NCBI GenBank assembly: GCA_018882785.1
Contig: VERI01000001.1
Coordinates: 248,001 to 312,000 of the forward strand
From: Burkholderiaceae bacterium
Lineage (GTDB): Bacteria; Pseudomonadota; Gammaproteobacteria; Burkholderiales; Burkholderiaceae_A
DNA length: 64,000 nt
Direction: 5' to 3'
Shown here: piece by piece, positions 43,643 through 52,941 of the stretch
Layout of the letters: each line of letters starts with the position of its first letter
Numbering within the stretch: the first letter of the stretch is position 1
The notes under the pieces: model-generated
What the model was told of the DNA's origin: nothing
The model's database searches: none
What the model saw: only the letters and a program-made list of their open reading frames with translations
Made by a program: the position numbers and the translations under genes

Positions 43643-43686
43643 TGTCATTTATCTTTGACATTTTTATGTGTAAGGCTAAAATGACA
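43643..43686 (+). promoter_or_regulatory. puc promoter with two tandem PpsR/CrtJ-type palindromes
   Basis: Two TGT-N12-ACA motifs, 43643-43660 and 43669-43686, separated by exactly 8 bases. The first ends in a perfect -35 TTGACA (43655-43660) and the second contains a -10 TAAAAT (43677-43682), with a 16-base spacer. Bound PpsR/CrtJ would thus block both promoter elements, the arrangement known from Rhodobacter capsulatus bchC. It predicts aerobic repression of the puc operon. Confidence 0.85.
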
Positions 43687-43793: not shown

Positions 43794-43946
43794 ATGGCAG
43801 ACCCAAACAAAGTATGGCCGACTGGCCTTACCGAAGCTGAATCAGAGGAGATTCACCGCAATCTGATTCAAGGCACGCAGATTTTCGGGATGATCGCTGT
43901 TCTCGCACATCTGCTGGCTTATATCTATTCACCCTGGCTGCATTAA
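43794..43946 (+). CDS. pucB: Light-harvesting LH2-type antenna beta subunit
   Basis: Fifty-residue antenna beta polypeptide of the intracytoplasmic membrane. It shows GLTEAESEEIHRNLIQGTQ before the helix and AHLLAYIYSPWLH at its end; His21 and His39 are the expected bacteriochlorophyll-related histidines, His39 the B850-type ligand. AAGGAG at 43781-43786 is the ribosome site. The beta-alpha-pucC order and the absence of pufLM make this puc rather than puf. Confidence 0.95.
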   Translation: MADPNKVWPTGLTEAESEEIHRNLIQGTQIFGMIAVLAHLLAYIYSPWLH

Positions 43947-43958
43947 AAGGAGCCGATC

Positions 43959-44144
43959 ATGATCTACGGAAAAATTTGGTGCGTGGTCAAACCCTCGGTG
44001 GGCATCCCTCTGTTTCTGTCTGCCGTCGCGATTGGCTCATTTGCTGTGCACCTGGCGCTGGTAACGAACACCACCTGGGTGAAAGATTTTCTTCAAGGTG
44101 GCCAGAAGACGGCTGCTGCGCAACCGCAGGCCGTCAAGAAGTAA
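43959..44144 (+). CDS. pucA: Light-harvesting antenna alpha subunit, LH3 (B800-820)-like
   Basis: Sixty-one-residue alpha polypeptide, one helix. It aligns without gaps to the first 48 residues of LH2 alpha chains: GKIWCVVKP at the N-terminus, His31 as the B850 ligand, TTW at 38-40 and QGG at 46-48. Positions 44 and 45, Tyr-Trp in B800-850 complexes, are Phe-Leu here, the residues of the B800-820 form. AAGGAG precedes the ATG by six bases. The Ala/Gln/Lys tail is longer than usual. A hairpin terminator follows. Confidence 0.95.
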   Translation: MIYGKIWCVVKPSVGIPLFLSAVAIGSFAVHLALVTNTTWVKDFLQGGQKTAAAQPQAVKK

Positions 44145-44170: not shown

Positions 44171-44206
44171 AAGGGCGCCGGGGTGATCTGCTCCGGGCCC
44201 TTTTTT
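44171..44206 (+). terminator. Hairpin terminator between pucA and pucC
   Basis: Stem AAGGGC/GCCCTT extended by an inner CCGGGG/CTCCGG helix with a one-base bulge, then six T. It probably ends most pucBA transcripts so that antenna subunits far outnumber PucC, as stem-loops do in other puc and puf operons. Confidence 0.85.
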
Positions 44207-44264: not shown

Positions 44265-45683
44265 GTGAATCGCTTCAGTCGATCGTTTCTTGAATCTTGG
44301 GCCGCAATGGGCACACGGTTTTTGCCGTTTGCGGATGCGGCTACACCCGATCTCCCCCTGTCCAGGTTGTTAAGGCTGTCGCTATTTCAAGTGTCGGTGG
44401 GTATGGCCCTGGTACTGTTGATCGGTACCTTAAATCGCGTGATGATCGTTGAGCTGAAGGTACCAGCTTCGATCGTCTCGATTATGGTGTCGCTTCCCAT
44501 TCTCTTTGCGCCCATGCGTGCCTTAATTGGTTTTCGATCTGATGTTCATCGCTCCGAACTCGGCTGGCGTCGGGTACCGTTTCTGTGGATGGGCACCATG
44601 CTTCAGTTCGGTGGATTTGCGGTGATGCCATTTGCGCTTTTGGTGCTTGCGGGGGCGGGTCAGGCGGCCCACGCCCCTGTATGGATTGGCCAGGTCGGGG
44701 CAGCGATTGCATTTTTGCTGGTGGGGGCAGGGCTGCATACCGTTCAGACGGTCGGGCTCGCCCTGGCTACGGATCTGGTCCCTCAGGAGTCCCAGCCCAA
44801 AGTTGTGGGACTTATGTACGTGACGCTGCTTGCGGGGATGATCGTCAGCGCCCTGGTCTTTGGCGTGCTACTTGAAGAATACAGTCCGGGTCGATTAATT
44901 CAGGTAATTCAAGGTGCAGCGGTAGTCACCGTGGTACTCAATGTGATCGGATTGTGGAAGCAAGAGGCCCGAGACCGAACTCGAAAGCACTCCTCCTTAG
45001 CGAGTCCAACGTTTATTGAGTCGATACGATCTTTTTCGCGTGGCGCTTCAGCCATTCGGCGATTAATGGTGGTCGGACTCGGTACGATGGCCTTCACCAT
45101 GGAAGATGTTTTGCTCGAACCCTACGGTGGAGAGATCCTTGGATTGAGCGTAAGCGCGACAACACTGCTTACTGCCACTTTGGCTTCCGGGAGTTTGATC
45201 GGATTTTGGTTTGCATCCTGGGTGCTGGGCCGGGGGGGCGACCCCTATCGCATGTCTGCCTCGGGTGTAGTGGTCGGGTTTCCAGCGTTTATCGCCGTGA
45301 TCCTGGCCGCCCCTTTGCAGTCGATTCCGCTCTTCTCGATTGGTACGTTTCTGATCGGGCTAGGGGCAGGATTATTTGGCCATGGAACGCTGACGTCCAC
45401 CATGCAGTCCGCCCCGCGGGAGCAGGTCGGGCTCGCCCTTGGGGCCTGGGGCGCGGTACAGGCCACGGCCGCTGGACTGGCCATGGCGGTCGGGGGCATC
45501 ATTCGTGACCTGGCAGTGGCTACCGATACGCTGGGGCTTTTAGGGCTGGGATTTGTCGGAAATGCCATCGGCTATGTCCTTGTGTATATCATTGAGCTTG
45601 TGCTCTTGGTGGCCACGTTGGTATGCATGGCCCCCTTGATTAAAAAACAAGATTCCGGGGAGTTCACTCGAACGCTGGCCTAA
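44265..45683 (+). CDS. pucC: PucC, LH2 assembly/bacteriochlorophyll delivery protein
   Basis: Twelve-helix MFS-type protein required for LH2 assembly, 472 residues with a GTG start. RFLPFADAATPDLPLSRLL, LIGTLNRVMIVEL and GFRSDVHRSELGWRRVPF mirror the lhaA paralogue at 3225-4688. It follows pucBA after a terminator and has no obvious promoter of its own, so expression probably depends on read-through. A possible one-helix micro-gene follows. Confidence 0.93.
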   Translation: MNRFSRSFLESWAAMGTRFLPFADAATPDLPLSRLLRLSLFQVSVGMALVLLIGTLNRVMIVELKVPASIVSIMVSLPILFAPMRALIGFRSDVHRSELGWRRVPFLWMGTMLQFGGFAVMPFALLVLAGAGQAAHAPVWIGQVGAAIAFLLVGAGLHTVQTVGLALATDLVPQESQPKVVGLMYVTLLAGMIVSALVFGVLLEEYSPGRLIQVIQGAAVVTVVLNVIGLWKQEARDRTRKHSSLASPTFIESIRSFSRGASAIRRLMVVGLGTMAFTMEDVLLEPYGGEILGLSVSATTLLTATLASGSLIGFWFASWVLGRGGDPYRMSASGVVVGFPAFIAVILAAPLQSIPLFSIGTFLIGLGAGLFGHGTLTSTMQSAPREQVGLALGAWGAVQATAAGLAMAVGGIIRDLAVATDTLGLLGLGFVGNAIGYVLVYIIELVLLVATLVCMAPLIKKQDSGEFTRTLA

Positions 45684-49812: not shown

Positions 49813-52800
49813 ATGGCTGAGCAAAATATCTATCTGTATGCGACCCAATCCCCACCGGCGAGCATTGACACAGGGGAGGAAGATTTCCCTGATGCACCGG
49901 GCGTCATGCTCGCAGACGGAACAATCTTCTATACCTGGAAAGATGATCCCCTGAAGACTGACAGCTCAGGAACCGGCATCTTCGATCCCTTCTTGACCAT
50001 TCAGCAGTCTGGTTCCGAGACTGGCACGAATCTGTATAACGGCAGTACCTATGCCACAGGTAACGCAATTAGTTCTAGCGATAACCGGACCAGCCTGCTG
50101 GAGATCAGCAAGATTCCTGTGGTGGGTGTTGGTGATATGCAGTACCTGGAAATCCGCCTGGATCTGAACGAAGTGAGTGGCGGTGGCGGCCCGAAGGCGG
50201 AGGTCCGTATGACTGATCTGAAAATCTACGGATCCAATGATTCTAGTCTTTCATCCTTTGCAGGACTTACCCCACTGTATTCGATTGACAGCGCAGCGCT
50301 TGATACCACAGTGCATATGTGGGATGACTTCAACGGCAGCGGACGCTCCGATGTCGTGATGCTGATACCCAAGAGCTATTTTGCCTCCAATCCCCAATAC
50401 CTGTATTTCCAGACCACTTTCCAGGGAACCGACGGGGGTTTCGAAGAATTCTCGACTCAGGTTCTGCAGGCGCCGCTGGATCCTTCCGTGACTATCGAGA
50501 AGACTGCGGACGTACTCAATTCCGATCGCAGTGACGATACCGATGACATCATTGATTCGGCGGGGGACATCGTGACGTATACGGTCTCGGCCAGTAATCC
50601 TGGTGATGTGCCACTGACCAATCCGACCATCACCGATCCTCTAATCGCCGATTCATTAGATACCAATGATGATGGCTTGGTGAACGCAGCAGATATTGTT
50701 AGCGGCGATACAAATGACAATGGCCTGCTCGATGTGGGCGAAACCTGGGTCTGGCAGGGGGAATACACCGTGACGCAGGCGGATATGGATGCCCGCGGAA
50801 ACTACGATGGGCCCGACGTAGATGCCATTAACGACAATGTCATTCGTAATGTGGTCGCGATCTCGACTGATGAGGGCGCGTCTGATGATGCGGTAGCCGA
50901 CAGTCTATTGGATTACAACCCTGTTCCAAACATTGAAAAAACCTATGATGTTCTAAACTCGGATCGCTCTGATGACCCTGATGATTTAATCGATATTGCG
51001 GGCGATATTGTTCAGTATTCGCTCAGCGTAAGAAATGACGGCAATATCACCCTGAGGGATGTGGTGATCACAGACCCGCTTATTGCTGATTCCTTGGATA
51101 CAAATGACGACGGCGTAGTCAACGTCCTGGACTCGACTGGTGGCGATGATGGAAACGGGCTACTAGATGTAGGTGAGACTTGGACCTTTGCCGGCGAGTA
51201 CACGGTCACCCAGGCCGATATGGATGCCCGAGGTAATTACGATGAACTTAGCGACGGGACCAATGACAATGTAATTCGAAATGCCGCGAGTGTTGAGGTG
51301 AAAACTCTAGACCAGAGCTTGAGTGCCACCACCCGTACATATACAGACCTTAACTATGAACCACTCATCAGTATTGAAAAGCTCGCCGATGTTCTGAACT
51401 CTGATCGGTCGGATGATGCGGATGACGTCGTTGATACAGCTGGTGACATTATCACCTATAACGTCAGTGTCAGAAATGAGGGTAATATTACTCTGACCGA
51501 TGTGGTGTTGACCGATGCCCTGATCGCTGATTCATTAGATACCAATAATGATGGCTTGGTAAACGCAGCAGATATTGTTAGCGGCGATACAAATGATAAT
51601 GGCCTGCTAGATGTGGGCGAGACCTGGGCATTTACCGGCGAATATTCTGTTAGTCAGGCGGATATTGACAATCACGGCAATCACGACAGCATTGATCCGG
51701 ATACGATCAATGACAATGTGATGCGCAATGTGGTTGCAGTCACGTCTAAGGCCAGTGACCAGAATATCTCAGATGATACTTTCGTAGATACCAGGGTGAT
51801 CTATGGGCCGGACTTGGAAATCCTCAAGACGGCCAACGTCTCGGAAGTGGATGCTGCTGGGGATGAGATTGAGTACACGGTGACGGTGAACAACATCGGT
51901 AACGTGACCTTGACCAACGTGGTGGTGACGGACCCCTTATCGGGCCTGTCGGAAACCATCGCCTCGCTGGCTCCGGGCGCTTCTGAATCCTTCACGGCGA
52001 CCTATCTTGCCACCCAGGGTGACTTTGATACCAACGGCGGTGGGGACGGGGATATCGACAACACGGCCACCGCCGACAGCGACGAGACCGATGTGGTCAC
52101 GGCCAGCTACGCGGTCGATTTACTGTACAACCCTGCGATGAGCATCTCGAAGACTGCCAATGTTGAGTCCGTAGACGAAGTGGGAGATAAGATTCTCTAC
52201 AGCATTGAAGTCTCAAACGTAGGTAATGTCACTCTTACCGACGTGACCTTAGAAGACACGCTAATCGAAGATACCCTAGACAATGATGCTAACGATGATG
52301 GCGTTATTGATGGGGATGACGGAGATGGTCTGCTTGAGGTTGGCGAGACCTGGGTCTGGCACGGAGAATATACGGTTACCCAGACAGACTACGATGAGGC
52401 CTTGGCGACTTCAGGAGATTATTACATCCGCAACACCGCAACAGCGGATAGTGCTGAGACAGATCCCGTAACGTCTTCCGAAGAGGTAAGTCTGGTTAAG
52501 ATGGCGTTTGAAGGACTCTCTCCTGGCTATTGGAAGAATCATCCAGACGACTGGGATGGATTGCTGCCATCGGCAAGTTTTGAAACATTCTTTTTCGGTG
52601 GGCCAAAACCAGGCTTAAATTGGAAGGTAAAAACCACTGCCAATGGCAAAGATAAATTTGCAACAACCCAGGACATCACCATGGAGCAGGCCCTCGCCCT
52701 TACCGGGGGTTCGGAGGCGGCACTAGCGCGATCGGCAGTTGCTGCTGTGCTTAACTCTAGAGATGAGGATGTCACCTATCGGTTTACTGAAGCTCAGATC

Positions 52801-52941
52801 AAAGAGTGGGTTTCGGAGGCGCTCTCGGGTCAGCCAGTCGACCTAGAGAATGATGGTGTCATCGAGTACGCCGCCGGCGCTATGGCGATAGGGGGTGTCA
52901 AGGATCTTCTGGATTTTAATAACAACCTTGGCGTCATCTAG
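49813..52941 (+). CDS. Large repeat-containing surface/secreted protein, probable type I secretion substrate
   Basis: A 1042-residue protein with no signal peptide, next to its own type I exporter. Residues 1-225 are a non-repeat beta-rich domain. Five DUF11/DUF7507-like beta-sandwich repeats start near 226, 373, 520, 669 and 777, each opening with a [VI]EKT..VLN or ILKTAN strand; repeats 1, 2, 3 and 5 contain Asp/Asn-rich DTNDDG-type calcium loops. The C-terminus (about 902-1042) has GLSPGYWKNHPDDW and ends LDFNNNLGVI. AAGGAG precedes the ATG by eight bases. Likely an adhesin. Confidence 0.85.
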   Translation: MAEQNIYLYATQSPPASIDTGEEDFPDAPGVMLADGTIFYTWKDDPLKTDSSGTGIFDPFLTIQQSGSETGTNLYNGSTYATGNAISSSDNRTSLLEISKIPVVGVGDMQYLEIRLDLNEVSGGGGPKAEVRMTDLKIYGSNDSSLSSFAGLTPLYSIDSAALDTTVHMWDDFNGSGRSDVVMLIPKSYFASNPQYLYFQTTFQGTDGGFEEFSTQVLQAPLDPSVTIEKTADVLNSDRSDDTDDIIDSAGDIVTYTVSASNPGDVPLTNPTITDPLIADSLDTNDDGLVNAADIVSGDTNDNGLLDVGETWVWQGEYTVTQADMDARGNYDGPDVDAINDNVIRNVVAISTDEGASDDAVADSLLDYNPVPNIEKTYDVLNSDRSDDPDDLIDIAGDIVQYSLSVRNDGNITLRDVVITDPLIADSLDTNDDGVVNVLDSTGGDDGNGLLDVGETWTFAGEYTVTQADMDARGNYDELSDGTNDNVIRNAASVEVKTLDQSLSATTRTYTDLNYEPLISIEKLADVLNSDRSDDADDVVDTAGDIITYNVSVRNEGNITLTDVVLTDALIADSLDTNNDGLVNAADIVSGDTNDNGLLDVGETWAFTGEYSVSQADIDNHGNHDSIDPDTINDNVMRNVVAVTSKASDQNISDDTFVDTRVIYGPDLEILKTANVSEVDAAGDEIEYTVTVNNIGNVTLTNVVVTDPLSGLSETIASLAPGASESFTATYLATQGDFDTNGGGDGDIDNTATADSDETDVVTASYAVDLLYNPAMSISKTANVESVDEVGDKILYSIEVSNVGNVTLTDVTLEDTLIEDTLDNDANDDGVIDGDDGDGLLEVGETWVWHGEYTVTQTDYDEALATSGDYYIRNTATADSAETDPVTSSEEVSLVKMAFEGLSPGYWKNHPDDWDGLLPSASFETFFFGGPKPGLNWKVKTTANGKDKFATTQDITMEQALALTGGSEAALARSAVAAVLNSRDEDVTYRFTEAQIKEWVSEALSGQPVDLENDGVIEYAAGAMAIGGVKDLLDFNNNLGVI
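50650..50748 (+). repeat. Near-identical repeat copy 1 inside the surface protein gene
   Basis: This 99-base stretch encodes the calcium-loop segment of repeat 1 and matches 51529-51627 in repeat 3 at 94 of 99 positions by my count; four of five differences are silent and one changes Asp to Asn. Confidence 0.85.
51529..51627 (+). repeat. Near-identical repeat copy 2 inside the surface protein gene
   Basis: Partner of 50650-50748. The two copies are far more alike than either is to the equivalent part of repeat 2, which points to recent duplication or gene conversion between repeats 1 and 3. Confidence 0.85.

Follow-up and report, generated by a model that had tools for sequence, protein, structure and literature searches.

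Which class of light-harvesting complex is encoded by the puc pair in this window, i.e., the whole stretch of 64,000 nucleotides that was analyzed, and where in the near-infrared would it absorb? A sequence-only reading had proposed a blue-shifted, low-light-type antenna of the LH3 (B800-820) class, on account of a Phe-Leu pair in the α-chain. The pucA gene (43959..44144, + strand) encodes an LH2-type α-chain of 61 amino acids, MIYGKIWCVVKPSVGIPLFLSAVAIGSFAVHLALVTNTTWVKDFLQGGQKTAAAQPQAVKK, which scores 38 bits against the Pfam LHC model (cut-off 23) and matches the α-chains of LH2 and LH3 complexes in the PDB with E-values down to 1e-14. The alignment with these chains is gap-free over residues 2/3-53, confirming what the earlier reading had claimed for LH2 α-chains, and has Met1, Trp7, Pro12, His31, Thr38-Thr39-Trp40 and Gly47 in place. 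The gene follows pucB (43794..43946, + strand), encoding a β-chain of 50 amino acids (Pfam LHC, 35.8 bits), and precedes pucC (44265..45683, + strand), encoding a PUCC-family MFS protein of 472 amino acids for LH2 assembly (PF03209, 479.5 bits, E=1e-143), which adjoins pucBA also in the relatives examined. Both the α-chain itself and the arrangement of a pucBA pair with pucC, separate from pufLM, place the complex in the LH2 family. A terminator-like stem with a T-run lies between pucA and pucC (44178..44196, + strand), but, taken alone, it is not above chance.

Codons 44 and 45 (44088..44093, + strand) are TTT (44088-44090) and CTT (44091-44093), encoding Phe44 and Leu45, where B850 complexes hold Tyr-Trp or Tyr-Tyr. 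In the alignment, the pair falls on the positions occupied by Tyr-Trp, Tyr-Tyr or Phe-Leu in known complexes, as the sequence-only reading had stated, and since it is kept in orthologues, chance is no issue for this assignment. Codon 41 (GTG; 44079..44081, + strand) encodes Val and aligns with the hydrogen-bonding Tyr41 in LH3 of Rbl. acidophilus 7050 (PMC9618040, Table 1); the segments concerned read TTWVKDFLQGG in the window, TTWVAKFMNG in PucD of R. palustris and TTWYAAFLQGG in LH3. The α-chain is thereby devoid of all three known α-chain donors to C3-acetyl groups (Val41, Phe44, Leu45). Codon 27 (TCA; 44037..44039, + strand) encodes Ser, a residue which in Rba. sphaeroides bonds the C13 keto group of β-B850 (PMC9618040).

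A comparison of nine structures related the number of hydrogen bonds to the C3-acetyl groups to the absorption band, i.e., two bonds at ~850 nm, one at ~825 nm and none at ~800 nm (Qian et al., PMC9618040). LH3 of Rbl. acidophilus 7050, with its band at 820-824 nm, has one such bond, from α-Tyr41, whereas R. palustris PucD, with Phe-Met at positions 44-45 and V41-F44-M45 in the PDB alignment, has no such bond and absorbs at 803 nm (PMC9618040). Residues 44-45 alone do not fix the wavelength, since the double substitution Y44F+Y45L in Rba. sphaeroides yielded a B800-826 complex (PMC9618040). Furthermore, according to a 2025 review, the LH4-like antennas found in Roseobacter and in other aerobic phototrophs have Phe44-Leu45 as their motif; their absorption lies at ~806 nm, and they constitute the exclusive peripheral complex of these bacteria (PMC12654162). 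Reported peaks are a single band at 806 nm for Roseobacter litoralis and 813/799 nm for Limnohabitans planktonicus (PMC12654162), and the sole antenna of Pseudohaliea rubra absorbs at 804/821 nm (PMC3679898). Thus, complexes measured with Phe44-Leu45 span 806 to 826 nm, and the short-cut from this pair alone to LH3 or 820 nm has to be corrected: residue 41 and the β-chain count too.

Considering these residues together with the genomic evidence discussed below, the window pair is likely to encode an LH2-family antenna, blue-shifted to ~813 nm and repressed by PpsR, that serves an aerobic anoxygenic phototrophic betaproteobacterium as its sole peripheral complex. With Val41, Phe44 and Leu45, no known α-chain side chain would hold the C3-acetyl groups of the ring-bound bacteriochlorophylls; these groups would rotate away from the plane of the macrocycle, shifting the 850-nm band to the blue. 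The blue shift proposed in the sequence-only reading is thus borne out, as a prediction from the loss of both canonical donors at positions 44 and 45. The most likely spectrum would consist of a B800 band and a band at ~813 nm, with 803-826 nm as the plausible range. The value of ~813 nm is predicted because the window pair agrees with the Limnohabitans type in the pattern at five α-chain sites as well as in the β-chain segment HLLAYIYSPW.

Genome-wide, four LHC-family matches were found: the puf β- and α-chains (contig C33, 218.6-219.1 kb) and the puc pair of the window. The genome, of 2.17 Mb and 98% completeness, thus has a single pair of each kind. The earlier statement that this is the only puc pair in the window can therefore be extended to the entire genome, in which a search for a second pucBA copy found none; that one was overlooked is unlikely. 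The genes for the reaction-centre subunits L and M adjoin puf; they share a contig with puc, at a distance of 73 kb, and the LH1-reaction centre encoded there would receive the energy harvested by the puc antenna. A search of a plasmid collection gave no match. Between pufB and pufA of this genome lies an ORF for a membrane-type protein of 74 amino acids (L001, 1254-1478), in the same place as ORF2 of Rubrivivax gelatinosus. Near the puc region, the window further encodes a protein of 1042 amino acids (49813-52941) with repeated DVLNSDRSDDxDDxxD segments, which by eye resemble DUF11-like surface repeats.

How common is such an antenna? A protein search in 399 genomes of the order revealed this α-chain in 29 of them, as a single copy in 28, and the residues at positions 44-45 in the loci of the order were FL in 24 cases, YH in two, and FM, FY and YY in one each. 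Hence, Phe-Leu is the common state in the Burkholderiales, as the sole peripheral antenna. In a sample of loci derived from contigs, 56 of the 73 in the tree were FL, although this sample is skewed to the query because the search seeds included the window's own peptides. According to a PucC tree, made without the α-chain, the FL state changed at least nine times on well-supported branches, and V41 travelled with it in eight of nine independent pairs (p = 0.008, in the same skewed sample), which suggests that the C-terminal segment of the α-chain is co-adapted. The sequence-only reading had considered a lone Phe-Leu antenna notable, as LH3 is usually an extra copy. This does not hold: in aerobic anoxygenic phototrophs, the exclusive peripheral complex is often a blue-shifted antenna (PMC12654162), and single-copy FL is the majority state in the order. 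The window antenna is, therefore, probably an unexceptional case among the blue-shifted LH2 complexes of aerobic phototrophs, neither rare nor a low-light extra. In betaproteobacteria of this kind, the peripheral antenna usually lacks the canonical hydrogen-bond donors and is the only one present. Within the family, the peripheral antenna is patchy, as several genomes of the genera g2 and g3 contain puf but lack a puc pair. Another genome of the family (97% complete) showed the puc pair and one match to a reaction-centre subunit but no match to an LH1 (puf) antenna, probably due to a contig break.

Two groups share with the window both a single puc copy and the combination of V41-F44-L45 with S27-N37. 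These five residues were present in 29 of 30 α-chains from the genus to which a Limnohabitans MAG belongs and in 14 of 14 from the one holding Roseobacter insulae; these counts concern genus members, whereas the peaks at 813/799 and 806 nm belong to named strains, whose own α-chains may differ. The Limnohabitans LH2 resembles the window's complex in that it is found in Burkholderiales, is encoded by one puc pair, and has the same α-chain signature and the same β-chain C-terminus, with ~67% α-chain identity in a member of the genus. The gene arrangement differs, since puc is located ~6.5 kb from puf in the MAG sampled, as compared with 73 kb here.

The "high-800" or LH4-like LH2 of Roseobacter likewise shares the five α-chain residues, the status of exclusive peripheral antenna and the tandem PpsR boxes discussed below. 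It is, therefore, conceivable, though rather doubtful, that the window antenna has a single band at ~803-806 nm, with both rings absorbing at ~800 nm as in Roseobacter and in PucD of R. palustris, especially as F44L45 has been named an LH4-like motif (PMC12654162). The β-chain argues against such a spectrum: that of the window, with HLLAYIYSPW and GTQ, belongs to the Burkholderiales kind and not to the alphaproteobacterial kind found in Roseobacter (VAVATPW, GTR), whose α-chain also has a long tail and is 61% identical to that of the window. Moreover, L. planktonicus, the relative of the same class for which data are available, has a resolved 813-nm band (PMC12654162). As to PucD-LH2 (803 nm, PDB 7ze3), it resembles the window in Val41, Phe44 and a non-polar residue 45 but deviates from it in Met45, Val27, the presence of a γ-subunit and its multigene family.

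A true LH3 spectrum, as claimed originally, with a band at ~820-826 nm and one bond left from another residue, such as a Tyr or Trp of the β-chain, appears unlikely. The Phe44-Leu45 pair is indeed the same as in LH3 of Rbl. acidophilus 7050 (PDB 1ijd), which is the best match in the PDB, with 58% identity but <1 bit above LH2 of Rba. sphaeroides, and P. rubra illustrates that a sole antenna can absorb at 821 nm. Since the Y44F+Y45L variant of Rba. sphaeroides absorbs at 826 nm with Ser27 present, 820-826 nm is still within reach of the window antenna. However, the single C3-acetyl bond that LH3 retains comes from Tyr41, which is replaced by Val in the window, peaks of 806 and 813 nm were reported for natural complexes from groups that have these five residues in common, and the window pair does not accompany a B850 copy as an inducible extra. 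The assignment to the LH3 class was, therefore, not upheld, the pair being equally a motif of ~806-nm LH4-like antennas.

Could the β-chain replace the missing donors? That of the window has Tyr at positions His+4 and His+6 and the conserved Trp at His+9, and its C-terminal segment, HLLAYIYSPW, is of the Limnohabitans kind. A compensating change was sought among Burkholderiales loci, in 50 distinct pairs with a Phe-Leu α-chain and 18 with a Tyr44 α-chain, but the C-terminal segment was the same in both groups and, thus, gave no sign of a replaced donor. The sequence-only reading had named bonds supplied by the β-chain as evidence that would overturn it, and, by sequence, no such compensation was seen. 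An ordinary B850 complex, in which these β-chain residues or others restore both hydrogen bonds, is accordingly extremely improbable, as one and the same segment accompanies both Phe-Leu and Tyr44 α-chains. Nevertheless, throughout the Burkholderiales complexes, a bond could come from the constant tyrosines at His+4 and His+6.

At another site, the β-chain of the window has Gln (GTQ) where β-chains of the Rhodobacter and Roseobacter types have Arg (GTR), the residue that bonds the B800 acetyl group; this Gln is constant among Burkholderiales loci with MIYGK-type α-chains. The NCBIfam model NF040862 labels the puc β-chain as LH1 β, but this label was dismissed, as the model accepts also clear LH2 β-chains above its cut-off. 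Hence, automatic annotation may name puc β-chains pufB.

A very improbable arrangement is that of Gemmatimonas phototrophica, where RC-LH1 is surrounded by a concentric outer ring of a complex called LHh (816 nm) and separate LH2 rings are absent. It was suggested that Gemmatimonas acquired its photosynthesis genes from betaproteobacteria, and the matter was left open for Limnohabitans (PMC12654162). However, LHh consists of a pufA2-encoded α-chain and a β-chain shared with LH1 (PMC12817894), whereas the window encodes a separate α/β pair with its own pucC at 73 kb from puf. In addition, the α-chain aligns end to end with chains of nonameric LH2.

Upstream of pucB, two PpsR/CrtJ-type palindromes, TGT-N12-ACA, are found at 43643..43660 and 43669..43686, 26 bp apart from start to start. 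They overlap the -35 and -10 elements of a σ70-like promoter, TTGACA-16-TAAAAT (43655..43682, + strand; 11/12 matches). In the whole window, the pattern occurs 12 times versus 9.8 expected, which is no more than chance; the case for these boxes is, therefore, made by their position, pairing and conservation. Upstream of pucB in 79 related loci, 117 boxes were counted, mostly in the same tandem pair, against 4.6 expected from mononucleotide shuffles; the majority of these loci retain the pair. A ppsR gene (481.5 bits) is located near the genes for the reaction-centre subunits L and M. Tandem boxes over a promoter are the known arrangement for repression by PpsR/CrtJ. Hence, control of puc by oxygen or redox conditions is likely: transcription would start from the σ70-like promoter, with both its elements inside the palindromes, and PpsR probably represses the antenna. 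The boxes are no evidence for a low-light role of the antenna.

Within the genus, the critical pair itself varies. The window genome, G004 and G005 encode Phe-Leu, whereas two other members, G001 (L201) and G003 (L202), encode Tyr44-His45, with TAT CAT or TAT CAC instead of TTT CTT. Phe-Leu and Tyr-His are, thus, two single-base changes apart (TTT-CTT versus TAT-CAT). PucC and PufLMC trees agree on the branching order, in which G001 splits off first, G003 second and the Phe-Leu trio last, although the PufLMC tree gives little support (80/78) to the fork uniting the window with G004 and G005. Since the outgroups of the genus are Phe-Leu, Tyr-His either originated once, at the root of the genus, and was later lost again in favour of Phe-Leu, or originated on two occasions, with two steps each way. 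G003 and the window genome are close relatives: their L and M subunits are 97% and 94% identical, respectively, and their puc β-chains differ in one residue. We give an even chance to the proposal that this represents a natural Phe-Leu/Tyr-His switch in one genus with a nearly unchanged β-chain, so that the near-infrared band harvested would differ between sister species. If true, Tyr-His would be a hydrogen-bonding pair that is absent from the solved structures checked. The switch among sister species is the one mildly novel point of this locus, and, as the key pair switched repeatedly, even inside one genus, it offers natural pairs for tests of spectral tuning.
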